Source: Candidatus Woesebacteria bacterium RIFCSPLOWO2_01_FULL_39_10
GTDB taxonomy: Bacteria; Patescibacteriota; Microgenomatia; UBA8517
Reading direction: 5' to 3'
Length of the DNA: 35,505 nt
Assembly (NCBI GenBank): GCA_001793015.1
Contig: MGHC01000011.1
Span: 18,604-54,108, forward strand
Positions 268 through 30,500 of this stretch are shown piece after piece; the first letter of the stretch is position 1, and each line of letters begins with the position of its first letter. The translations under genes were made by a program, and so were the position numbers. The notes below the pieces were generated by a model, which was given only the letters and a program-made list of their open reading frames with translations, did not search any database and was not told the DNA's origin.

Positions 268-3200
268 ATGAGTGACTTAAATATTATTATTCCTGTCAAA
301 AATGAAGCTGGAAATATAAAAGAGCTGGCTGATCGGATTCACGCCAGTCTTTATTCAGCAGGCATAAAGTATCGAATGATTTTTGTGGACGATCATTCGG
401 AAGATACAACCGTTGAAGAGATAAAAATGGTTTCTGGAAAGTATCCTGTAATACTTCACGTTAAGCAAGGAAAACCTGGTAAAGCATATAGCATTTTGGA
501 AGGGTCCAAATTTGCCACAACTGAAAAGCTGGCAATGATCGATGCAGATCTTCAGTATCCTCCCGAGGTCATTCCAGATATGTACAAACTACTGGACGCT
601 CACGGAGTTGTTGTATCAAACCGCAAAGGCCATAAAACCTCGTTAACAAGAAAAATAGGATCAAAAATGAACAGCCTGATCTTTGAGAAGTTTTTACATG
701 GCTTGAAGGTGGATACCCAGTCGGGCCTGAAACTATTTAAAAAAGAAATAATCGACCATTTGACAGAAGAAGATGTAACGGGATGGACGGTTGATATGCC
801 TCTTCTTAGAACTTCACTTGAGCTTGGCTACTCGATTGGGTGCGTTGATATAGAATTTACGGAAAGAAAAAACGGAAAATCAAAAGTGAATTTCCTAAAA
901 ACCGCACTTGAGATCGGGAGTCACTCTCTGAGACTTAAATTTAAGAAAAGAAAAGTTTATCCGATTAAATCTAAAACAATTGATTCTCCAATCGGTGCGG
1001 GATTGGCCCATAAAGGTAAGAGATTTATCACACACACCCACTTACCACACGAAATCTCAGCGTTAAACACTCTTCATTTGTGGCAAAAAATTGCACTTTT
1101 CTCGTCAATCACAATCCTAGTAGTTGGTTTATTAGTGACAACCAAGTTAACCGCCATCATTGTCATCGCCTTTTTATCATTTATTTATTTTCTTGATCTT
1201 TTGTTTTCTTTACGGGTTTTACTTAAATCTTTACATAATCCTCCTGAAATCAAGATTGATGACGTGGAGATAGCTTCACTTAATGATCAAGACCTGCCTT
1301 TGTATACAATTCTTTGCCCTTTGTACAAAGAGGCCAAAATTTTACCTGAATTTATTGAAAATATAGGAAAAATTGACTGGCCGAAGGAAAAGCTGGAAGT
1401 AATTCTTTTACTTGAAGAAGACGATGAAGAGACAATAAAGGCCTCCCAAAATATATTTATTCCCAGCTACATAAGAACGCTTATTGTTCCAAATTCGCAG
1501 CCAAAAACCAAACCAAAAGCCTGTAATTACGGATTGGCATATTCCAAAGGAGAGTATTTAGTAATTTATGATGCTGAAGATAGGCCGGATCCTCTTCAAC
1601 TGAAAAAAGCATACCTTGCTTTCAAAAAATTGGGTGAAGATGTTGTCTGTTTACAATCGAAACTAAATTACTACAATACAGGCCACAACATTTTAACGAG
1701 ACTTTTTACAAGCGAATACCTCCTGTGGTTTGATCTTATTTTGCCAGGATTACAAGTGGCAGGGACAGTTATTCCTCTAGGAGGTACTAGCAACCATTTC
1801 AAAACCAAGAAACTAAAAAATCTTCACGGATGGGATCCTTTTAACGTAACTGAGGATTGCGACCTGGGTGCAAGGCTTTTTAAAAAAGGTTACAAAACTG
1901 CACTTTTAGATTCAACGACTTATGAGGAGGCAAATTCGAGAATAATTTCCTGGATAAAACAGAGATCACGTTGGATAAAAGGCTATATCCAAACCTACCT
2001 GGTTCATATGCGTGATCCTATAAAGTTCCATAGAGAATTTGGACTTCAAGCTCTCATTTTTCAACTTGTTGTTGGTGCCAGAATGACGTTTATTCTTATA
2101 AACCCAATTCTTTGGCTGGCTACAATTTCTTACTTTGCACTGTACCAATTTGTCGGACCAACAATTGAGTCTCTTTACCCAACCCCGGTTTTCTATATAG
2201 CTGTCACATCTTTAGTTTTTGGTAACTTTATCTATTTTTACAACTATATGATTGGCTGTGCCAAAAAAGGACAGTGGAGTCTTATTAAGTGGGTATTTTT
2301 AATTCCACTCTATTGGCTAATGACTAGTATTGCGGCAATTGTAGCTTTTTATCAACTAATTGTCGCGCCTCATTTTTGGGAGAAAACTGAACACGGTTTG
2401 CATCTTAGTGTCAAAGCAAAACAAAAAGAAGCAATACGATTATTGCCAAGACTAGCTTTAAGCGACGCTGTTTTTGGTGGAAGTGTACTTATATTTGCCT
2501 CAATTGCCGCCAACTTTTCCAATTTTTTGTATAACGCTTATTTGGGAAGATCGGTTGACCTTTCGCAATTTGGGACAGTTGCCTTAATAGGAAACATATT
2601 TACTTTGGTTGGCGTAATAACAACTGCATTAGGAAGGACTGTTTCTTACAAAACCGCATACCTATTGGGTAAGTTTGGGTATACAGTTTCTGATTTTTGG
2701 GCTAAAACCCAAAAAGTATCCTGGTTTGGAGCATTTTTAACAACCCTTATTTGGCTTTTGGCTATACCGTTCTTGGCAAACTTTTTTAATGAAGTTGACC
2801 CTGTTCCCTTCTTACTTTTTACACCGTTTTGGATATTTGCCTTAGTTGGTTCAGTAAACCACGGATTTATTAGTGGGAATTTAAAATTCGGCACACTCGC
2901 AACAATTGTTTTTCTTGAGTCTTCAACCAAACTTCTTTTTGCGTACCTTTTTATCGAATTTGGATTAAAAGATCTGGTTTATGCGGCAATTCCGGCTTCA
3001 CTTGTTATTCCCTTTATTTTTGCATGGCTTATATCGGTAGGAATTAAAAAACAAAAACTCGTATACGAAGCTAAGATCGAACTTAATTTCCCAACCGGAT
3101 TTTTTACAACCTCGATTCTAACGAGCTTGGCAGGCGTTGCCATATTAACCTTTGACGTAATTTTGGCAAAACATTATCTTCCAGCAACAGAAGCCGGGCA

Positions 3201-4902
3201 GTACGCCCTTTTGTCGTTAAGCGGAAAGATAGTTTACTTTTTGGGATCCTTATTTACGCAATTTATTACACCTCTCGTAAGTAAGGGTGAGGGTGCCGGT
3301 AAGAGAACAGAGGAAGTTTTTTATAAGTTATTAAGCGGTTCGATTGCAACCTCGTTCGTCGGATTTATAGCAATCGGAATATTCGGCCACATAACAATTC
3401 CAATGTTATTTGGTGAAAAGGCTGTGAGCTTAATTCCACACCTTCCCTTATACGCACTGGCGATGTTTCAGTTTAGTGTTGCCTCGGGAATAGTAATTTA
3501 CCACCAAGTCAAAAAACATTATCTATTCCCAATAATTTCATTTTCTGTGGCAGCCCTTGAGGTTCTCGGAATAGCCTTAAGCCATAATAGTATTTCGGAT
3601 ATATCTCTTGTTGTTACTACTCTCGGATCAGTCCAGCTTTTCTTAGTTACTTTCTTTCATGTCCTGTACGACCCTTTACTAGTTTTATCTAGAAACGTAA
3701 GCGATTTTTTGGGTCTTTTTACTTCAATTAATGGAAACGGAAAACCTTCTCAAAATCTACGGATTTTGGTTTTAAATTGGAGGGATACAAAACATGTTTA
3801 TGGTGGTGGAGCAGAGGTTTATATAGAGGAAATTGCTAAAAGATGGGTTAAGGAAGGGCATAAGGTAACTATCTTTTGCGGAAATGACGGAAAATCGGAA
3901 AGAAATGAGGTTGTTTCCGGAGTTCAAATAGTGCGCCGCGGCGGATTTTATACAGTTTATATCTGGGCGTTTTTATATTATGTACTTAAATTCTCTGGCA
4001 AATTTGATATCGTCGTTGATTGCGAAAACGGAATTCCATTTTTTACACCCCTTTATGTAAGAGTTCCAAAGGTTCTTCTAATACATCACGTTCATCAGGA
4101 TGTATTTCGAAAACATCTTAGTTTTCCGCTGTCATACATTGCCATGGCGCTGGAATCAAAACTAATGCCGTATTTATATAAAAATTCTCAGATTGTAACT
4201 ATTTCCGAATCTTCCAGGCGCGATATTGTAAGACAGGGTTGGGCAATACGAGATAATATTCAAATTGTTAATCCGGGAATTAATGCTATAGCTTTCAAAA
4301 AAGCTAAAAGATCGGCTAATCCCACTTTTACCTATGTCGGTCGTTTAAAGCATTACAAAAATATTGACGTAGCAATTAAAGCCCAGGCCATAATTTCGAA
4401 AAAATATAACGAAGCCCGCCTATTTATTGCCGGTAAAGGCGAAGAAGAAAATTACCTAAAGGGGCTCGCAAAAGAACTTGGAACGAATGGATCGGTTGTA
4501 TTTAAAGGATTTATTAGTGAAAAAAGTAAAGCAAAACTGCTTTCCTCCTCATGGGCTGCTATTCAGCCCTCGTCTTTTGAAGGCTGGGGTATAACCGTTA
4601 TTGAAGCGAACGCTTGTGGGATTCCTGTGATTGCCTCAAAAACCAATGGCCTTTCTGATTCTGTCGTCGATGGAGTAACAGGACTTTTAGTACCACAAGG
4701 AAATCCTGAAGTTCTCGCAAAAGCTATGGAAGGAATCATTTTAGATAAAAAATTTAGACTCGAACTTGGCCGAAAAGCATATGAGTGGTCCAAAAATTTC
4801 AGCTGGGACAAGAGTGCAAACCAATTTTTGAGAATTATTTTTAAGACAATAGAAAAAGAACGAGAAGTTTTATTTGTGAGGAAACTAGAATTGGCAAAAT
4901 AA
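268..4902 (+). CDS. four-domain fusion: GT2 (DPM1-like) + BcsA/NdvC-like membrane GT2 + Wzx/MATE-like polysaccharide flippase + GT4 glycosyltransferase
   Basis: Uninterrupted 1544-aa ORF. N-terminal GT2 (LNIIIPVKNEAGNI...DADLQYPP); second GT2 with D..D..QRSRW motif flanked by TM helices; multi-TM flippase-like region from about nt 2440; GT4 from about nt 3760 (LRILVLNWRDTKHVYGGGAEVYI...FEGWGITVIEANACGIPVIAS). Confidence 0.88.
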   Translation: MSDLNIIIPVKNEAGNIKELADRIHASLYSAGIKYRMIFVDDHSEDTTVEEIKMVSGKYPVILHVKQGKPGKAYSILEGSKFATTEKLAMIDADLQYPPEVIPDMYKLLDAHGVVVSNRKGHKTSLTRKIGSKMNSLIFEKFLHGLKVDTQSGLKLFKKEIIDHLTEEDVTGWTVDMPLLRTSLELGYSIGCVDIEFTERKNGKSKVNFLKTALEIGSHSLRLKFKKRKVYPIKSKTIDSPIGAGLAHKGKRFITHTHLPHEISALNTLHLWQKIALFSSITILVVGLLVTTKLTAIIVIAFLSFIYFLDLLFSLRVLLKSLHNPPEIKIDDVEIASLNDQDLPLYTILCPLYKEAKILPEFIENIGKIDWPKEKLEVILLLEEDDEETIKASQNIFIPSYIRTLIVPNSQPKTKPKACNYGLAYSKGEYLVIYDAEDRPDPLQLKKAYLAFKKLGEDVVCLQSKLNYYNTGHNILTRLFTSEYLLWFDLILPGLQVAGTVIPLGGTSNHFKTKKLKNLHGWDPFNVTEDCDLGARLFKKGYKTALLDSTTYEEANSRIISWIKQRSRWIKGYIQTYLVHMRDPIKFHREFGLQALIFQLVVGARMTFILINPILWLATISYFALYQFVGPTIESLYPTPVFYIAVTSLVFGNFIYFYNYMIGCAKKGQWSLIKWVFLIPLYWLMTSIAAIVAFYQLIVAPHFWEKTEHGLHLSVKAKQKEAIRLLPRLALSDAVFGGSVLIFASIAANFSNFLYNAYLGRSVDLSQFGTVALIGNIFTLVGVITTALGRTVSYKTAYLLGKFGYTVSDFWAKTQKVSWFGAFLTTLIWLLAIPFLANFFNEVDPVPFLLFTPFWIFALVGSVNHGFISGNLKFGTLATIVFLESSTKLLFAYLFIEFGLKDLVYAAIPASLVIPFIFAWLISVGIKKQKLVYEAKIELNFPTGFFTTSILTSLAGVAILTFDVILAKHYLPATEAGQYALLSLSGKIVYFLGSLFTQFITPLVSKGEGAGKRTEEVFYKLLSGSIATSFVGFIAIGIFGHITIPMLFGEKAVSLIPHLPLYALAMFQFSVASGIVIYHQVKKHYLFPIISFSVAALEVLGIALSHNSISDISLVVTTLGSVQLFLVTFFHVLYDPLLVLSRNVSDFLGLFTSINGNGKPSQNLRILVLNWRDTKHVYGGGAEVYIEEIAKRWVKEGHKVTIFCGNDGKSERNEVVSGVQIVRRGGFYTVYIWAFLYYVLKFSGKFDIVVDCENGIPFFTPLYVRVPKVLLIHHVHQDVFRKHLSFPLSYIAMALESKLMPYLYKNSQIVTISESSRRDIVRQGWAIRDNIQIVNPGINAIAFKKAKRSANPTFTYVGRLKHYKNIDVAIKAQAIISKKYNEARLFIAGKGEEENYLKGLAKELGTNGSVVFKGFISEKSKAKLLSSSWAAIQPSSFEGWGITVIEANACGIPVIASKTNGLSDSVVDGVTGLLVPQGNPEVLAKAMEGIILDKKFRLELGRKAYEWSKNFSWDKSANQFLRIIFKTIEKEREVLFVRKLELAK

Positions 4903-4956: not shown

Positions 4957-5874
4957 ATGAATAACAAACCAACAATAACTATCGGCATTCCAGCATATAA
5001 CGAAGAGCAAAACATCGCTAATATGCTTGATAGTGTCTTAGCTCAAAAAGGCAGTTTCAAGTTAGAGAAAATTATAGTTGCTTGCGACGGATGTCTGGAC
5101 AAAACCCCTGATATAGTCAGAAAGTTTCAAATGCAAAACAAAAATATAATCTTACTCGAAGGTAAGCGAAGAGAAGGTAAATTATATAGATTGAATCAAA
5201 TATACAAAAGAAGCAAAAGCGACATTTTACTAACATTCGATGGAGACATTCTTCTGTCGAATGAAACGGTAATTGAAAAAATGATTAGTAAATTAACTGA
5301 AGACAAGAATGTCATTTTGGTTGTAGCACACCAAGTACCTGTCAAACCAACTAATTTTAAGGAAACAATTTTCTATACTGCTTACAAAATTTGGGAGGAA
5401 ACCAGAGTTCATGTTAATGAAGGAGACCATATCCATAATTTGCAAGGCGCTGCTGTTGCAATGAGAGCCAAGTTAGCAAAAAAATTAAGGTATCCAAAAA
5501 CCCTCACAACCGATCAGGGCTATCTTTATCTGTTTGCTAAAAAGTACGGGAAATTTAAATATGCATACCAAGCAATAATTTTTTATAGAGTGGTAAAAAC
5601 ACTAAAAGATTTCAGGCGACTTTCCCAAAGGACCTTGCATCAAGATCAGCAAACAGCAGCAAAACATTTTGGAAAAGAAGCCTTGAATGAGTACAAGATT
5701 CCCGTTCACAATAAACTAAAAGCGTTAATAATAAACTTTGTAAAAAGTCCACTATTTACCTCTCTTGCAATTTTAGTAAACCTTTATGTTCGGTTATTTC
5801 CATTAAATAACAATGGAAAGCCAGAGAATAAGTGGAAAATAGTTACAACAACAAAGGAGGTGATACACGTATGA
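4957..5874 (+). CDS. glycosyltransferase family 2
   Basis: TITIGIPAYNEEQNIANML...FDGDIL; C-terminal TM segment. Confidence 0.9.
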   Translation: MNNKPTITIGIPAYNEEQNIANMLDSVLAQKGSFKLEKIIVACDGCLDKTPDIVRKFQMQNKNIILLEGKRREGKLYRLNQIYKRSKSDILLTFDGDILLSNETVIEKMISKLTEDKNVILVVAHQVPVKPTNFKETIFYTAYKIWEETRVHVNEGDHIHNLQGAAVAMRAKLAKKLRYPKTLTTDQGYLYLFAKKYGKFKYAYQAIIFYRVVKTLKDFRRLSQRTLHQDQQTAAKHFGKEALNEYKIPVHNKLKALIINFVKSPLFTSLAILVNLYVRLFPLNNNGKPENKWKIVTTTKEVIHV

Positions 5875-6764
5875 AGAAAAAACTTACATTAACAGTTGGA
5901 ATTCCAACGTATTATGGAGGGCCGGCATTAGTTAATGCGGCAAAAAGCGTGTTGGATTCAAAAAGTGTTGATAAATTTCGACTAATTGTGAATATAGATG
6001 GGAATCCTTTAGAGCCAGAAATAGAAAAACAGCTTTTAGACTTGGGAGTAGATGTTGTATTCAGCAAAGAAAGAGGAGGACAAGTTGCCAGAATTAAACA
6101 AATGATAGGGATGACAGATACAGACATCTTAGTTCTTACCCAAGATGATATTCAATTAGCGCCTGATACTTTAGCAAACATACTAAAGACCTTTGGAAAT
6201 TATCCCAAATTGACAATGATTGGGGCAAGGATGAGGTCAAAGAAAACTAACAAAATAATGGAAAAGATAGTAGATGTTGCGGTTGAGGGAAATAACGAAC
6301 TGGGACGAAGATGGAAAAACGGCAACAACTATTTAATGGCTTCAGGTCGATGTATGGCATTTAGAGCAGACTTTATTAAAAAGTTTGATATTCCTGAAGG
6401 AATCATTAACTCAGATTCTTACCTTTACTTTGAAAATAAAAGAAAAGGAGGAGAATTCCTGGCACTTAGCGAGGCTGTGGTATTTAACAAAACACCTGAA
6501 ACTCTAAAAGAACATCTTAAACAAAGCCGTAAATTCAGTGTTTCGAAAGGTGAAAACGAAAAATACGCAGGTGAAAATTTATCAGGTGAATATTCGATTC
6601 CCTTGAAACCAAAACTCGAAGCATTTGCGGCGATACTTTTAAGAAAGCATATTTGGGCAATTTTGTATTTAGGAATAAATCTCTATACAAAAATTGTAGG
6701 CAGAAATATGTACAAAGACGCCGTTAGATTTTGGGAAACAGATAAAACGACTAAAAAAGTATGA
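5871..6764 (+). CDS. glycosyltransferase family 2
   Basis: The ORF track starts at 5832, but ATG at 5871 follows a perfect Shine-Dalgarno AAAGGAGGTGAT and overlaps the upstream stop as ATGA; LTVGIPTYYGG...TQDDIQL. Confidence 0.88.
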   Translation: MKKKLTLTVGIPTYYGGPALVNAAKSVLDSKSVDKFRLIVNIDGNPLEPEIEKQLLDLGVDVVFSKERGGQVARIKQMIGMTDTDILVLTQDDIQLAPDTLANILKTFGNYPKLTMIGARMRSKKTNKIMEKIVDVAVEGNNELGRRWKNGNNYLMASGRCMAFRADFIKKFDIPEGIINSDSYLYFENKRKGGEFLALSEAVVFNKTPETLKEHLKQSRKFSVSKGENEKYAGENLSGEYSIPLKPKLEAFAAILLRKHIWAILYLGINLYTKIVGRNMYKDAVRFWETDKTTKKV

Positions 6765-7849
6765 AATCTATAGTAAGAAAATCAAAGTCAACAAATAGAA
6801 TAAACAGTGGCTCTCTGTCTGTGTGGAATGTTATTTTTGGTAATTTTCTAAGTTTAATAAGTTTTCTAGATGATGTTGAACATAAACATGATTTATACAA
6901 GATCAGCGGTTATAAGTTATTTGAAAAATTCAAAACAAACACGAGGAATTCTAATTGGGTAGCGGCAGTTTACAAAAATGCATCGAATAAAAAGGTATTT
7001 GTTAAAAGGTATTTTTACAAATATAAGGATATTAATTATCATCATATATTGAATATGGCGTTTTTTTTAACACAGACTAGATATTTACAAAATCAAAAAC
7101 ATGGCTCGTATACAGTCAAATTTCCAAAGGTAGTTGACTTCAACGATAATAAAAATAATGTGACTTTAGTCACAGAATTTTGTGAAGGTAAACCAATTTC
7201 TGAACATAAGGACGATACAATATTGGAAGTGCTAGGTGAGTGCTTAATAGAATTAAAAAGTCATACGTCTAGGTTAAATAAAGAAATTGTTAATCAGCTT
7301 CCAAAAAGAACCCCTTTATTGATTTTTCTAAACTTTAATTATTTATTATTGAAAAGTTTCGTAAAAGATTTAAAAAGCCCAACATTGTATATAAAAATTC
7401 TAGCTACTTTTTATAAGCATGCTATAACATTGGATTATTTTAGGCCAGAATATTCAATATCCCACAGAGATTTAACCCCGGATAATATTTTGATCGACAG
7501 AAATACTATTACAATTTTGGACACAGAATATTTGGTGATTGGGGACTCGGTGACTGATTTAGCTATCACTCCACGAATGTTTCTCAATAAGGTTGAACCA
7601 GAAAAATTGATTAGTCTTCTGAATAAGAATTTAAATAATACTTCGGAGAGAAACAGATTCATGGCTTTAAGTTTGTACTATACAGTGTTAACACTTTCCG
7701 TATCGGAAAAGAAAAGCCGTCACTATAATAATTCAAAATTGTATTTAAAGGAGTTTTTTGAAAACATAGCACCGAAAGTTTTTGAAATTATTGATGAACA
7801 TAACAGGGAAAAAGAATACTTTTGTGAAGGAGAGATTTTTAATAATTAA
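6761..7849 (+). CDS. protein-kinase-fold (APH/WaaP-like) phosphotransferase
   Basis: SHRDLTPDNILIDRNTITILDTEYLVIGDSVTDLA resembles catalytic HxDxxxxN and metal-binding D motifs; ATGA overlap with upstream gene. Confidence 0.7.
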   Translation: MKSIVRKSKSTNRINSGSLSVWNVIFGNFLSLISFLDDVEHKHDLYKISGYKLFEKFKTNTRNSNWVAAVYKNASNKKVFVKRYFYKYKDINYHHILNMAFFLTQTRYLQNQKHGSYTVKFPKVVDFNDNKNNVTLVTEFCEGKPISEHKDDTILEVLGECLIELKSHTSRLNKEIVNQLPKRTPLLIFLNFNYLLLKSFVKDLKSPTLYIKILATFYKHAITLDYFRPEYSISHRDLTPDNILIDRNTITILDTEYLVIGDSVTDLAITPRMFLNKVEPEKLISLLNKNLNNTSERNRFMALSLYYTVLTLSVSEKKSRHYNNSKLYLKEFFENIAPKVFEIIDEHNREKEYFCEGEIFNN

Positions 7850-8782
7850 ATGAAAAAACCAACAGTTACAATCGGAATCCCTGCCTATAACGAGGAGGCA
7901 AATATCGAATATTTGCTTAAAACACTTTTGGCAGATTCGTCCAGGATTGTAAAACTCGCCGAAATAGTCATTGTATCGGACGGAAGTACAGATGCTACAG
8001 TCACTTGTGCGAGATCGGTTAATGATCGACGAATAAGAATCATTGATCGAAAACAAAGACGAGGGCTCGTCGCCACCGAGAATGAGCTTTTGCGCAATGT
8101 CCATGGAGATATCTTGGTCATGTTAGATGCTGATGTAGTTCCAGTAGAATCCGATTTTTTGGATAGGATAACAGAGCCTATCAGGAAAAATTCTTCTGTT
8201 GGTTGTGTGGGGGCAGATATAATACCACTTCCTCCCAGGAATCTTTTTGAGCGTGTGATTGCAAACAGTCACTACCTGAAGCGACATCTCTATAGAAGAA
8301 TCAGTCATGGCAACAATGTCTATTTGTGTCATGGGAGGGCGAGGGCCTTTTCGCGCTCGTTTTATAAAAAGTTGCATTGGCCGGATGATTGTCCGGAAGA
8401 TGCTTTTTCTTATCTTACTTGTATTGCGAGAGGATTCAAATTTAAATATACAGATGCAGCTAGTATATTTTTTCGGTCCCCGGTCATTTTATTTGAGCAT
8501 AGGCTTCAAAGCTCTCGATTTGTTGCAGGAATAGACCGGCTTAAGGAATTGTTTAGTCCAGAATTTGTTAAGCGCGAGTATAGCATACCCTGGAAGTTGT
8601 TCGTTGGTACATTACTGAAATACTTATTTCGCAACCCTTTCTCTACACCTGCATATCTTGTAATCACGTCTTATATTCGATTAACTCACAGAAATACAGA
8701 TATTTATAAGTCTAGATTTGAGGTGGCATCAACTTCAAAACAAATAGTTGCATTTAAAGGTCAAAAACTATCAAGAGTATGA
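7850..8782 (+). CDS. glycosyltransferase family 2
   Basis: TVTIGIPAYNEEANIEYLL...MLDADVVP; start directly abuts the upstream TAA. Confidence 0.9.
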   Translation: MKKPTVTIGIPAYNEEANIEYLLKTLLADSSRIVKLAEIVIVSDGSTDATVTCARSVNDRRIRIIDRKQRRGLVATENELLRNVHGDILVMLDADVVPVESDFLDRITEPIRKNSSVGCVGADIIPLPPRNLFERVIANSHYLKRHLYRRISHGNNVYLCHGRARAFSRSFYKKLHWPDDCPEDAFSYLTCIARGFKFKYTDAASIFFRSPVILFEHRLQSSRFVAGIDRLKELFSPEFVKREYSIPWKLFVGTLLKYLFRNPFSTPAYLVITSYIRLTHRNTDIYKSRFEVASTSKQIVAFKGQKLSRV

Positions 8783-9999
8783 ATATTTTAATTCCAAATG
8801 CCACAGGGCCTACAAATCTCGGGGATCATACCATGCTCGAAGTATTGCTGGATCTTATTGAGTCGACGAAAGGAAAGAAAAAATTAATGATACATACGAA
8901 AAATCCTGAGCTATATGAAAGAAAATATGCGAGGATTATCGCACCGAGTATTTATCACTATGTTGCCCTGAGTAAAATAAATTTAATTGTAAGAACTCTT
9001 CGAATGATAAAAATACTTATGTATTCACAAATAGTAAAAAATAGATCTAGACCATTCATCTCGAAGCGAAGTGACACAGCGGTAAAAATTATGAATGATT
9101 ATATACAAGCTGATGTAATTATTTTTGCGGGCGGCGGATATCTCAGGTCACAAAAAGGCATGAGACAGTCATTGAACTTACTGCTGCAGTTAGTTCCGTT
9201 CATCGTCGCAAAAAGCGTTAAACGTAAGATAATAGTTGCTCCAAATAGTTTTGGACCTTTTGCCTATCACTGGCAGCTAAAACTTACAGCCAAAGTTCTA
9301 AATGATTGCGACGTGGTCGCCGTTCGGGAAGAAAAATCTTATACATTAATGAAATCATACGGAGTAAAAAATCTTCATCTTTTGAACGATTTAGCGTTAC
9401 TTGTTAAAAAAACCAAACCCACCAATAAGAAGAATAAAATTATTGGATTTACTATAAGAAACTGGCTGCGCAGTCGTGTTGAGCAAGACAAGCTCGAGTT
9501 TTCATACGCACATGCTCTTACGCGATTATCCAAGCGTACTGGGGTTACGATTCAGCCTATTATTCAAGTCGCCTCTCCGGATTTTCCCTTCGAAGATGAT
9601 AAGGAAGCAGTCCGGCGAGTATATAACCGACTTCGCGATGGACATGTCCCTGTGTCAGTCCCAATTAAACTTAAATCCGTGAAGCATGCCGCCAATGTAT
9701 ACGGATGTTTAGATTTACTTCTTGGTATGAGAATGCATTCAAATATTTTAGCAGCAACTCAAGGAGTACCGTTTGTTGCAGTGAGTTATGAGCACAAGAC
9801 CCACGGCATTACAAAGCAGATTGGCATGGAAAAGTATTGTATCTCATGTGAGAAGATAGACGGCGATGTTCTGTATAAGCTTCTCATGGTAGTCTATCGA
9901 AACCGTAAGCGACTCAGGGATCAATTAATAACAAACGTTGCGTCTATTAGAAGCATCGGTATCAACGAGTGGCAATCATTGCTTTCTAAAACAAACTAA
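8779..9999 (+). CDS. polysaccharide pyruvyl transferase family protein (CsaB-like)
   Basis: PTNLGDHTMLE...IFAGGGYLRS...APNSFGPF...GMRMHSNILAATQGVPFVAVSYEHKTHGI, typical of the family. Confidence 0.85.
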   Translation: MNILIPNATGPTNLGDHTMLEVLLDLIESTKGKKKLMIHTKNPELYERKYARIIAPSIYHYVALSKINLIVRTLRMIKILMYSQIVKNRSRPFISKRSDTAVKIMNDYIQADVIIFAGGGYLRSQKGMRQSLNLLLQLVPFIVAKSVKRKIIVAPNSFGPFAYHWQLKLTAKVLNDCDVVAVREEKSYTLMKSYGVKNLHLLNDLALLVKKTKPTNKKNKIIGFTIRNWLRSRVEQDKLEFSYAHALTRLSKRTGVTIQPIIQVASPDFPFEDDKEAVRRVYNRLRDGHVPVSVPIKLKSVKHAANVYGCLDLLLGMRMHSNILAATQGVPFVAVSYEHKTHGITKQIGMEKYCISCEKIDGDVLYKLLMVVYRNRKRLRDQLITNVASIRSIGINEWQSLLSKTN

Positions 10000-11183: not shown

Positions 11184-11286
11184 GAAAATATTATTTCCTT
11201 TTTAAAGAATATTTAGGACTATTGGATACGCGCTATTTTAATAGAAAGATTTTTTACGCTTTAAGTAAGTGGGGTTATATTTAAAT

Positions 11287-12891
11287 ATGAAAATAATTAA
11301 GAAAATATTTAAACCAGTATTTTTTATTCTTTTTTTGCTTTTTACTGTTTCAATATTGGCACTGAGTATACGTGGAGTTTATGGAAATCCAACTACAGAA
11401 ACACTTAATTCTTTATATTTCAAAGACGATGGGCCGTTAGAGTTATCTCCGGAAAAAGGGAGATTTGCGTTGATTTACTCATTGATCGAAGATAAATCAT
11501 TCCATTTTTCATTACCTGTGGCAAAAACTGTTACACCGGATTTGGGATATCAGGATGGTAAATATGTTTCTTTGTTCGACCCAGGAGTATCAATAATTGC
11601 TGCTCCGGGATATATTATTGGTAAGTATTTTAATGTATCGCAGTTTGGTAGTTTTGCAGTGATTGCTCTTTTTGCTTTAGCTAACGCCCTTCTTATTATG
11701 GGAGTTGCCAAAAAACTAGGTGCAAACGGGATTGCTTCTTCGTTGGCCGGATTGGTTTTTCTTTTTGGGACACCCGCCTTTGCATATGCCGTTACTTTAT
11801 ATCAACATCATGTAACAGTTTTCCTCATGCTTTTGAGCATATTCTTACTTGTGAAATACAAAGGAATTTTGCCATTATTTTTCGTTTGGATTTTGGTCGT
11901 GGGTTCTCTGATAGCAGATTATCCGAATTTTTTCTTATTTCTGCCGATAGGTATATATGCGCTGGGCAGGGTGTTTCCGATTGAAGATATAGATAATCGC
12001 GTGAAATTAAATATTAAAATATTAGGTCTTATAAGTTTCATTACAATCCTGATTCCTGTATCACTTTTTTTGTGGGTACATAAAGTATCTTATGGAGACC
12101 CACTGCAATTGGCGGGTACTGTACGGTCAGTAAAGGATTTTGATGTAGACGGTAGTCCTTTATTTAGAGAAGATTTATTAAGAAGGGAAGGTAAAGTGCT
12201 GGAAGCCGAAACCTTAAATAAGGGAAAAACCCCCATTGGTTTTTTCAAAACAAGAAACTTTATAAAAGGTTTGTATCTGCATCTAGTAAGTGATGAAAGA
12301 GGAATTTTAGTATTTACTCCCGTGCTGTTATTATCCTTAATCGGAATTTATTATTCTTATGTAAAAATACCCAAGGTAACAGCGCTTCTCTTGGCTTTGA
12401 TTGGGATGAATATCGCAGTATATTCAATGTGGGGAGACCCTTGGGGAGGTTGGGCTTTTGGGTCACGCTATCTAATACCCTCATACGCACTTTTATCGAT
12501 ATTTGTAGCGTTTACTTTGACAAAATTCAGAGGAAGAGGATTGGTTTTAATTCTATTTCTCGTATTAGCAGCTTACTCTATTTCGGTAAGTACCTTGGGG
12601 GCTCTTACTTCAAATAAAATTCCTCCGAAAGTCGAAGCTGTTGCACTGGAACCAATTTCTGGAAAAAAGGAACATTATACATATCTTCGAAATTGGGAGT
12701 TTTTAAGTAATAACGGTTCAAAGTCATTTGTTTTTCAAACATTTGGGAAGGATTATGTAACCGCACGACAATACTTTTTTATGGTTGTCGGGTCAATAAT
12801 TATAGTTATGACCGGACAAATTATTTATTTGTATTTGACTGCTAGAAAGGACCCTCCTTCGCGTAAAGCTACGGAGGGCGAGAGGATTTGA
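11287..12891 (+). CDS. multi-TM membrane protein, possible GT39-like glycosyltransferase
   Basis: Hydrophobic multi-TM ORF; ATG at 11287 preferred over GTG at 11269 (ORF-track start). Confidence 0.7.
   Translation: MKIIKKIFKPVFFILFLLFTVSILALSIRGVYGNPTTETLNSLYFKDDGPLELSPEKGRFALIYSLIEDKSFHFSLPVAKTVTPDLGYQDGKYVSLFDPGVSIIAAPGYIIGKYFNVSQFGSFAVIALFALANALLIMGVAKKLGANGIASSLAGLVFLFGTPAFAYAVTLYQHHVTVFLMLLSIFLLVKYKGILPLFFVWILVVGSLIADYPNFFLFLPIGIYALGRVFPIEDIDNRVKLNIKILGLISFITILIPVSLFLWVHKVSYGDPLQLAGTVRSVKDFDVDGSPLFREDLLRREGKVLEAETLNKGKTPIGFFKTRNFIKGLYLHLVSDERGILVFTPVLLLSLIGIYYSYVKIPKVTALLLALIGMNIAVYSMWGDPWGGWAFGSRYLIPSYALLSIFVAFTLTKFRGRGLVLILFLVLAAYSISVSTLGALTSNKIPPKVEAVALEPISGKKEHYTYLRNWEFLSNNGSKSFVFQTFGKDYVTARQYFFMVVGSIIIVMTGQIIYLYLTARKDPPSRKATEGERI
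12852..12878 (+). repeat. inverted repeat CCCTCC...GGAGGG encoding the C-terminus (PPSRKATEGERI) of the upstream protein
   Basis: CCCTCCTTCGCGTAAAGCTACGGAGGG; 6-bp perfect outer stem. Confidence 0.5.
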
Positions 12892-12892
12892 T

Positions 12893-14548
12893 ATGAAAAT
12901 GCCAAATTTCACCCTAAGTTTATCAATTCAAAAACATACACTTAGTAACATCCAAAACTGGATTGAAAGAAATGCATTGAGCCTTATTGTTTTTGTTTTA
13001 ACAATTCTTTCAATTTTATTGTTTCTCTTTTATTACCTCAACGGATTGGGGTTGGCGTATAACGATGCCAGGTCTCACTTAGACATAGGGCGCCGAGTTG
13101 TTGAAGGATTGAAACCCGGAATCGCTCAATTAGGATCTGTCTGGCTACCTCTTCCCCATGTATTAATGATTCCAACCATTTGGATTGATATTTTCTGGCA
13201 TTCTGGATTATCAGGAGCATTGGTTTCCATGGTTTCATTCGTTTCAATGGGAGTGATTATTTACCTTTTCCTAAAAAGTTTGGGAGCGGGGCTTTTAGGA
13301 AGATTTTTTGGAGTTATTGTGTTCGTCGCCAACTTAAACATTTTGTATCTTCAATCAACGGCTATGACGGAACTTCTTCTAATGGCAACGATGACGATAG
13401 GATGCTATTACCTACTTCTTTGGGCGAAAAAGGAGGAAGTACTTTATTTGATTAAATCAGCATTTTTTATAATGCTCTCGACACTAACTCGTTACGACGG
13501 ATGGTTTTTATTTTTATTTGCGGCATTATTAGTTGCCGTAAAAGTTCTCATTAAACACGGATTTAAAATAAGTCTTGGGCAATTGAAAGAAGTTTACCAA
13601 GAAACCGAAGGGAAGCTTATTCTTTTTTCAACTCTGGCGGGTTTCGGTATAGCTTTGTGGTTTTTGTGGAACTTAGTGATTTTTAAAGATCCTTTGTATT
13701 TTGCATTCGGCCCTTTCTCGGCTCGCACCCAGCAAGCCCAGCTTGAAGCCGCAGGAGAATTGCACACGAAATACAACATCGTTTTATCAACAGTTCTTTA
13801 TCTTTATGCACTAATTTACAATTCATATGCCTTCACGGTCATCTTAGGGCTTTTTGGATTGATTGCCTTGTGGTTTTCAAAAATTAAAACAGAGATAAAA
13901 GTTGCGGCAATGGCACTTCTTGCCCCTTTGTTTTTTAATGTCCTGGCCTTATTTTTAGGTCACTCTGTTTTGTTTATTCAAGGAATCTCAGGAAATACTT
14001 GGTTTAATGTCCGATATGGAATTATGCTTCTTCCGGCAATTGCTGTATTTACAGGATTTCTGGTTGATAAATTAAAAAACTTGCGGTGGACTTTTATTGG
14101 ACTGTTTGCTTTTACAACGTTTTTTGCATTCTCAAGCGGAGATTCTGTTGCAATCGATGATGCAAGAGTAGGATCAAGCCAGAAAAACGTTACTGAAGTC
14201 TCAGGCTGGCTTTCGAGAAATGCAAAGGATAGGACCGGTTTTATATTAATTTCAGCAGCATCCCATGATGCAATAATTTTTTCTTCAGGACTTCCTATGA
14301 AAAAATTTATTCACGAAGGAACCGGAGCGTATTGGGAGTCGGCCACAACAGCACCTGACAGATGGGCCCGCTGGATTGTAATGCGGACACATGACGACAA
14401 TGATTTAGTTTGGAAGGACGTAAGTCGCTCAGAAGGATTCAAAAAATATATTCTTGTTGACAGTTATCCTTTCGCAGATATTTACGAATTGGATGAAAAA
14501 TACCTTGGGGATTTAAATACAGGACCTACATTTGGTAAACAAAAATGA
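12893..14548 (+). CDS. GT39/PMT-like membrane glycosyltransferase
   Basis: Multi-TM protein with YNDARSHLDIGRRVVEGL...GSVWLPLPH, typical of GT-C-type enzymes. Confidence 0.75.
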   Translation: MKMPNFTLSLSIQKHTLSNIQNWIERNALSLIVFVLTILSILLFLFYYLNGLGLAYNDARSHLDIGRRVVEGLKPGIAQLGSVWLPLPHVLMIPTIWIDIFWHSGLSGALVSMVSFVSMGVIIYLFLKSLGAGLLGRFFGVIVFVANLNILYLQSTAMTELLLMATMTIGCYYLLLWAKKEEVLYLIKSAFFIMLSTLTRYDGWFLFLFAALLVAVKVLIKHGFKISLGQLKEVYQETEGKLILFSTLAGFGIALWFLWNLVIFKDPLYFAFGPFSARTQQAQLEAAGELHTKYNIVLSTVLYLYALIYNSYAFTVILGLFGLIALWFSKIKTEIKVAAMALLAPLFFNVLALFLGHSVLFIQGISGNTWFNVRYGIMLLPAIAVFTGFLVDKLKNLRWTFIGLFAFTTFFAFSSGDSVAIDDARVGSSQKNVTEVSGWLSRNAKDRTGFILISAASHDAIIFSSGLPMKKFIHEGTGAYWESATTAPDRWARWIVMRTHDDNDLVWKDVSRSEGFKKYILVDSYPFADIYELDEKYLGDLNTGPTFGKQK

Positions 14549-28582: not shown

Positions 28583-29260
28583 ATGCCAGGTAGAGGAGTT
28601 CCTCTTGTAAACGATGAGATTTATCACGTTGTTAATCGAGGAATTGCTTCACAACCTATATTCTTTAACAAAAAAGATTATGAGCGAAAAATTGCTACTA
28701 TTTCCTATTATCAACATGCGTACCCGCCATTAAGGTATTCCTTCTTTATTCGTTTACCAAAAGATAGAAGGCTGGAAATTATTGAAAAGTTTAAGAAAAA
28801 AGGCGATATCTTAGTAGAGATTATTGCTTATTGTTTGATGCCGAATCATTTACATCTTCTTTTGAAACAAAAAAGTAATAATGGTATTTCCTCATTTATG
28901 AGTAATATTTCAAATAGCTACACACGTTATCTTAATGTCAAAAATAAAAGATTTGGACCAATTTATCAAGGAAAATTTAAAGCCGTACGAATAGAAACGG
29001 ATGAGCAACTTTTACATGTTCAACGTTATATCCATCTTAACCCTTATAGTTCGCACGTTGTAAGAGACATTGAAGAACTTGAAAAGTATCCTTACTTCTC
29101 ATTGTCGGAATATTTAGATAAGTCTTATTTAGATCTTTGCAATAAAGAATTGGTTTTGGGTTTTTTCAAGAATAAAAAGGCATACAAAAAATTTATTTAC
29201 AATCAGGCCGATTATCAGAGGAAGCTTGACGATATTAAGCATTTAACATTGGAGCGTTAG
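28583..29260 (+). CDS. REP-associated tyrosine transposase-like (IS200/Y1_Tnp family)
   Basis: MPGRGVPLVNDEIYHVVNRGI...YCLMPNHLHLLL (HUH)...YIHLNPYSS. Confidence 0.92.
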   Translation: MPGRGVPLVNDEIYHVVNRGIASQPIFFNKKDYERKIATISYYQHAYPPLRYSFFIRLPKDRRLEIIEKFKKKGDILVEIIAYCLMPNHLHLLLKQKSNNGISSFMSNISNSYTRYLNVKNKRFGPIYQGKFKAVRIETDEQLLHVQRYIHLNPYSSHVVRDIEELEKYPYFSLSEYLDKSYLDLCNKELVLGFFKNKKAYKKFIYNQADYQRKLDDIKHLTLER

Positions 29261-29277
29261 TATCCTAACTCCAATGT
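29246..29277 (+). other. bulged hairpin ACATTGGA-gc-GTTAG-TATC-CTAAC-TCCAATGT over the transposase stop codon
   Basis: 8-bp + 5-bp stems with a 2-nt GC bulge; no T-tract follows. Confidence 0.75.
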
Positions 29278-29348
29278 GTGAACCTATCTCACCTCTAAGG
29301 TGCAGGTCCTCTTGTATTATTTCAAGCCTTTCTGCTACGATTGATTTG

Positions 29349-30500
29349 ATGGAAAAAGTTGTAATTGTGATGGCTGCTTGGAATGAAGCAGAAAACATTA
29401 AAAGGATGATGGATACCTTATTTGAGGAGGTCTTTCCCAAAATCTCCGCTGACATGCATCTTCTTGTAGCAGACAATAATTCAACGGACGGAATGACCCA
29501 GATTGTGGAACAGGAAATGAGGAAAAGGGAAAATCTTCACATAGTCCAACAGGGCGAGAAAAAAGGTTTGGGTCATGCTTATGTGGCCGGTTTTAAATAC
29601 GCTGTAGCTAAATTAGGGGCTGATGCGGTTATGGAAATGGATGCTGATGGGCAGCACCCGCCGCAGTTTGTAAAACCTATGGTAGATGCATACTTAGGAG
29701 GAGCTGATTACGTTATTGGTTCTCGTTATATTCCAGGAGGATCTGTTCCAAAAGAATGGGCATTTTCAAGACGCTTCATAAGTTTCGCGGGCAATTTATT
29801 TATAAGACTAGTTTTACTTAAACCTTCCCTTCATGATTTAACAACCGGTTTCAGATTGACTAAAGTTAAAGGGGTTTTGGATAGAATTGACTTAGACAAT
29901 CTTATGGAGAGAGAAAGGTTCGCGTACAAAGTTGATCTTTTATACCAATCAATTAAAAATGCAAAAAAAGTAGTAGAAGTACCACTGGAATTTAGACCAA
30001 GGACAACTGATAAGTCAAAATTCAATACGAAAGAGATGATTGCAACTTTTAAAGTCGCAATAATTTTAGGAATCAAAGATAAAGCAAAGTTTATTAAATT
30101 TGGTACGGTCGGATTCGCAGGATATTTGGTAAATGCACTAGGACTTTACTTTTTTAGTAGATTTGATTGGCCGGAGCCTGTAATTTGGGCGGCAGCAACA
30201 GAACTTGCGATAATTAATAATTTTATATTCAACAATATCTGGACTTTCAAATCTGAGAAAATTACCGGACTTGGTCGTTTACTATACAAATTCTTACAGT
30301 TTAATTTAACTTCAACAGGCGCTTTGATTATTCAAACTGTTGTTGGAACAGCAGGTGTCTTTGTTTTTGGTCCAAACTCCCGTCAAATTCTTTTGCCATT
30401 TATAATTCTTTTCTTGGTACTTCCTTACAATTATTTCATGTACAACGTTGTCATTTGGAAGAGCTGGAATCTGGCAAAACTTCTGAAGAGGCAGTCCTAG
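29349..30500 (+). CDS. DPM1-like GT2 fused to a C-terminal GtrA-like membrane domain
   Basis: VVIVMAAWNEAENIKRMM...EMDADGQHPP; GtrA-like FIKFGTVGFAGYLVNALGLYFF...NNFIFNNIWTF; start 29349 preferred over 29274. Confidence 0.9.
   Translation: MEKVVIVMAAWNEAENIKRMMDTLFEEVFPKISADMHLLVADNNSTDGMTQIVEQEMRKRENLHIVQQGEKKGLGHAYVAGFKYAVAKLGADAVMEMDADGQHPPQFVKPMVDAYLGGADYVIGSRYIPGGSVPKEWAFSRRFISFAGNLFIRLVLLKPSLHDLTTGFRLTKVKGVLDRIDLDNLMERERFAYKVDLLYQSIKNAKKVVEVPLEFRPRTTDKSKFNTKEMIATFKVAIILGIKDKAKFIKFGTVGFAGYLVNALGLYFFSRFDWPEPVIWAAATELAIINNFIFNNIWTFKSEKITGLGRLLYKFLQFNLTSTGALIIQTVVGTAGVFVFGPNSRQILLPFIILFLVLPYNYFMYNVVIWKSWNLAKLLKRQS

Follow-up and report, generated by a model that had tools for sequence, protein, structure and literature searches.

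A single gene in a Woesebacteria genome, located at positions 268 to 4902 of the window (the whole 35,505-nucleotide stretch of DNA that was analysed), encodes a protein in which a glycosyltransferase of family GT2 (domain A), a membrane GT2 with a QxxRW motif (domain B), a MOP/Wzx-type flippase (domain C) and a glycosyltransferase of family GT4 (domain D) are joined, parts for which separate genes are usual. The same four-part protein was found in 30 sampled genomes distributed over 14 family groups of the phylum, and the protein is therefore a real, conserved fusion. Judged from sequence, its likeliest role would be that of a consolidated, membrane-anchored multi-component glycosylation system, because genes for GT-C (PMT_2-like) glycosyltransferases are its conserved neighbours.

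Envelope-glycan enzymes and flippases are commonly envisaged as loose assemblies in the membrane, which are difficult to capture. With a predicted synthase of lipid-linked sugars, a membrane glycosyltransferase, a Wzx-type flippase and a GT4 covalently joined, the protein offers a fixed stoichiometry for testing the coupling of synthesis and flipping, and it connects MOP flippases with GT-C glycosylation in Patescibacteria, a group with a poorly understood cell-surface chemistry. The enzyme families are known ones; for their architecture we could not find a published description, either of such a glycosyltransferase-flippase fusion or of such genes in Patescibacteria, among the titles and abstracts of the open-access literature.

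The fused gene and its domains

The fused gene and its parts were delimited as follows.

268..4902, + strand: fused gene A-B-C-D, 1544 aa, one uninterrupted ORF with full-length orthologues
268..957, + strand: domain A, GT2 of predicted polyprenyl-phosphate sugar synthase type (DPM1/GtrB/ArnC-like), PF00535, DxD at aa 92-94
988..2412, + strand: domain B, cellulose-synthase-like membrane GT2 (aa 241-715), from PF13641/PF13632, PgaC/CelA models, BcsA, conservation and hydropathy
2452..3663, + strand: domain C, putative MOP/Wzx-type flippase (aa 729-1132), from homologues' profile matches and a standalone paralogue
3739..4869, + strand: domain D, GT4 (aa 1158-1534), PF13439/PF00534, EGWGITVIEA motif

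The ORF starts with ATG at 268 and its stop lies at 4902. Pfam matches in the window protein were obtained for GT2 at aa 6-160 (E = 1.2e-35), for GT2_3/QxxRW GT2 at aa 346-572 (2.9e-20) and for GT4 at aa 1180-1507 (1.1e-44). The initial annotation, which had read one 1544-aa ORF in the order GT2, membrane GT2, flippase and GT4, was borne out at closely similar coordinates, its domain calls being supported by Pfam for A, B and D and by profile matches of homologues for C; the same order in other genomes, for which it had proposed a search, was also found.

Full-length A-B-C-D proteins of the same order were encoded at 45-61% identity in 6 other genomes (56 searched), and an independent Woesebacteria MAG carried a 61% identical version over 1544 aa; an assembly chimera was ruled out by these full-length orthologues. 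Separate proteins from internal starts, of which the initial annotation had also warned, were rejected, as a scan of the three junctions (aa 215-300, 690-760 and 1115-1180) showed no in-frame ATG and only TTG/GTG codons, one with a weak GGTG-like match. Although the host genome (1.15 Mb, 97% complete) is a draft assembly of 38 contigs, in which starts are hard to call because most are without a Shine-Dalgarno-like site, the independent MAG, the 30 four-domain proteins from the survey and the scanned junctions largely refute an assembly artefact or internally initiated separate proteins, and make this reading highly improbable.

Domain A is predicted to be a GT2 of the polyprenyl-phosphate sugar synthase type. 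Compared with the PDB it matched dolichol-P-mannose synthase (5mlz, 1.2e-17); it also matched phrog_841 (GtrB-like), and Foldseek with its model returned 5mlz, ArnC and GtrB. The DxD residues D92/D94 were kept in 98% of sampled copies, and by hydropathy the domain has no membrane helix of its own.

Domain B contains a pair of transmembrane segments (aa 274-315), TED (aa 528-530), QRSRW (aa 565-569) and more hydrophobic stretches (aa 593-694), and carries the motif set of cellulose-synthase-like processive GT2 enzymes (acidic, TED, QxxRW). D435, the TED motif (E529, D530) and the QxxRW motif (Q565, R568, W569) were 96-100% conserved among sampled copies; the membrane part was modelled mostly below 50 pLDDT. 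The domain is shared with cellulose-synthase-like membrane GT2 proteins (BcsA, PgaC; Geobacillus, actinobacterial and rhizobial homologues); the best of its homologues from other phyla are 38-47% identical, and the best of these matches span B only. Among plasmid records, none spanned 80% of the fusion.

Domain C, with 11 hydrophobic stretches by hydropathy, gave no Pfam match in the window copy (aa 729-1132). Among 43 homologous C domains, Polysacc_synt was matched in 14 (best 3.7e-11), MatE in 5 and Polysacc_synt_3 in 4; C homologues also matched the NCBIfam flippase models spoVB, MOP flippase and TuaB, and a standalone C paralogue in the same genome was a clear Polysacc_synt protein (7.4e-20). 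A MOP-family flippase is thereby supported through homologues and at the family level only. The domain would be shared with Wzx/MurJ of the MOP superfamily, from which it differs in being fused between two glycosyltransferases and, for the window copy, in lying below Pfam detection. With regard to the two-bundle fold of 12-14 helices that marks the superfamily, the structure model that included C had a mean pLDDT of 45, with MurJ as a weak match only. The sole match from a profile search of C against PDB chains, a receptor fusion, was taken as chance, and viral contigs scanned with the flippase alignment yielded no relative.

Domain D matched MshA/PimA/GlgA in the PDB, and its E1438/E1446 pair was conserved at 98% in sampled copies. 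The AlphaFold models, built from 4 (A+B) and 2 (C+D) sequences, were weak (mean pLDDT 58 and 45, respectively) because they were built on the window sequence and a few loci only, and the Foldseek matches for the C+D model were not relied on.

Architectures and divergence of relatives

Relatives were surveyed with domain B as the query in 374 genomes of the class and 380 genomes of the phylum at a cut-off of E<=1e-60, and domain B was detected in 59 and 20 genomes of these sets, respectively, some genomes being in both. The 81 B-bearing ORFs comprised 30 ABCD, 15 BCD, 12 AB, 13 B alone, 4 ABD and 1 BD forms, the latter two without flippase, and 6 that ran off the contig or the fetched end. The membrane GT2 is the only part never lost, which is partly a product of searching with B. 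At four loci (L092, L131, L137 and L139) AB and CD were adjacent genes in the same order, with spacings of -34, +7, -3 and +5 nt, and at L135 B and C were adjacent genes. Three loci with the ORF split inside B (L124, L125 and L126) may be frameshifts and were not counted as natural splits.

Mean identity among the ABCD proteins decreased from B (60%) through D (52%) and A (43%) to C (36%). Pairwise-distance correlations were above the permutation null for B-C (0.51), C-D (0.53), B-D (0.35) and A-D (0.35), and inside it for A-B and A-C (Mantel r 0.20 and 0.17). A single origin of the fusion is not demonstrated by the B tree, on which the ABCD label has to change 15 times, 3 of these changes being forced by well-supported branches. 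No A was recognised within the same ORF in the 15 BCD forms, 2 of which adjoin an A-bearing ORF (possibly by frameshift); A has lost DxD and is degenerate in L095 and looks degenerate in L121. As it is often missing, at least once degenerate and out of step with B in divergence, A is an exchangeable or dispensable module.

Two further arrangements were observed. A separate GT2-GT4 fusion of 668-672 aa adjoins a three- or four-domain gene at L118:4740-6746 (668 aa) and L140:8938-10956, and at L134:6625-8016 a further flippase gene, standing alone, shares a few nt with the end of a complete ABCD gene.

The operon and the GT-C genes

Downstream of the fusion, the following genes were identified, together with a sortase and dTDP-rhamnose-type genes.

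4957..8782, + strand: operon genes, three GT2 and one APH-like kinase-fold protein
8779..9999, + strand: polysaccharide pyruvyl transferase, CsaB-like
11269..12891, + strand: GT-C-like glycosyltransferase, family A4, NCBIfam LA_3751/3752 at 9e-10, below the model's cut-off
12893..14548, + strand: GT-C-like glycosyltransferase, family A5, weak PMT_2 match

PMT_2 matches were obtained for 4 of 22 members of family A4 and 6 of 21 of family A5. Genome-wide, a single strong member was found for either family, that of A5 being its only copy, and both lie in the fusion's operon. One or both families were represented near B in 55 of the 81 loci, a raw count in a setting where GT-C genes are clustered in this genome. 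At many short-form loci the GT-C gene directly abuts B. This neighbour accompanies B also at loci without A and C, and its link to A and C may therefore be indirect.

Genome-wide, 28 PMT_2 matches were counted, which look many for 1.15 Mb, and one GtrA-type flippase domain. Each of the four standalone Polysacc_synt (MOP) flippases has a PMT_2 match no more than about 2.5 kb away. On contig C6 (L168:4158-12156), relatives of the fused parts occur together as separate genes: a standalone flippase, a GT2, a GT4 and a GT-C-like gene.

Proposed role and competing explanations

Glycosylation of polymers outside the membrane is known to employ a polyprenyl-P-sugar GT2, a flippase and a GT-C enzyme, and the flippase can be of the MATE/Wzx type, as in a MATE-flippase pentofuranose system (PMC11127046), GacI-GacK-GacL (PMC8035078) and AglD-AglR-AglS (PMC3871713). 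The corresponding parts are present here as a GT2 of the polyprenyl-P-sugar-synthase type, a Wzx/MATE-type flippase (at the family level) and GT-C genes alongside (by weak Pfam matches in a minority of members), and the three roles could be filled by A, C and the neighbouring GT-Cs. We tentatively propose, as a reading with somewhat less than even support, that the conserved translational fusion brings together, on one membrane protein, those steps of a surface-glycan pathway that take place in the cytoplasm and in translocation across the membrane. We infer the domain activities, the flippase substrate and the membrane side of each step as follows. Domain A, anchored by the transmembrane segments of B, would charge polyprenyl phosphate with a hexose; B and D would add or polymerise sugars on the same glycan at the cytoplasmic side; C would move a lipid-linked sugar or a short glycan across to the outer side; and the GT-C enzymes encoded downstream would use the flipped polyprenyl-P-sugar outside. 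The proposal draws on the conserved order in a single ORF, the adjacent AB and CD genes, the family matches of A and C, the GT-C neighbours and the proximity of standalone MOP flippases to PMT_2 matches. Against it speak the GT-C neighbour's attachment to B, the divergence of A independently of B and C, the degenerate A of L095, the ABD and BD forms without flippase and the weak structure models. Like GtrA/GtrB/Gtr and the three systems above, the locus unites a GT2 of the polyprenyl-P-sugar type with a flippase and a GT-C gene; it differs from them in that a single chain holds GT2 and flippase, separated by a QxxRW GT2 and followed by a terminal GT4.

Such a transmembrane glycosylation system is more economical than the 'assembly line' that the initial annotation had envisaged, and the data do not call for direct hand-over between the domains. 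A is missing or degenerate in many relatives, C is absent from others, and the conserved GT-C neighbour had no part in that earlier model. Channelling across the membrane, in which a polyprenyl-linked sugar made by A and possibly extended by B/D would pass directly to C inside the complex, appears rather doubtful.

A reading close to that earlier model is Wzx-type assembly, in which A, B and D would build an oligosaccharide on a polyprenyl carrier, C would flip it, and the GT-Cs would act separately or decorate it later. The correlated distances among B, C and D, the proximity of flippase and GT4 paralogues on contig C6 and in many relatives, and two initiating phosphoglycosyltransferases (PF02397) elsewhere in the genome agree with it, whereas A is similar to synthases of polyprenyl-P-monosaccharides, which serve as donors and are not growing chains, and no initiating transferase was found among the annotated window genes; we regard it as possible and on the unlikely side.

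The GT-C link to B, at least as strong as that to A or C, leaves room for a further reading, in which B would be a self-exporting polysaccharide synthase core (BcsA/HAS-like, with its own channel) and A, C and D, fused mainly for co-expression and anchoring, would modify or prime the polymer. Domain B, also the query that found the loci, is the best conserved part, its QxxRW and TED motifs are near-invariant, and its Geobacillus homologue (47% identity) adjoins a BcsB-like gene and a GT39 gene; however, the flippase fused in most long forms is left unexplained, and the presence of B in every form is partly due to the search with B, so that this explanation is considered unlikely. An accidental fusion of adjacent genes during genome streamlining, with independent domains and no coupling function, would accommodate the split forms that persist in relatives and the other multi-glycosyltransferase fusions of such genomes (the 668-aa GT2-GT4 in L118 and a GT2-GtrA in the window), but it is improbable given that the same order and linkage, with intact catalytic motifs, are seen in 14 family groups.

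Two further likenesses to the fusion were noted. MprF likewise combines a synthase and a flippase in one membrane protein (PMC8131360), but acts on an aminoacyl-phospholipid with unrelated domains. GT2-GtrA fusions, such as that at window positions 29274-30500, likewise join a polyprenyl-P-sugar-synthase-type GT2 to a small flippase-type domain, but carry GtrA in place of the MOP flippase and are without B or D. The GtrA domain of this smaller synthase-flippase fusion is the single one detected genome-wide. An IS200-like (Y1) transposase gene is located at 28583-29260 of the window.
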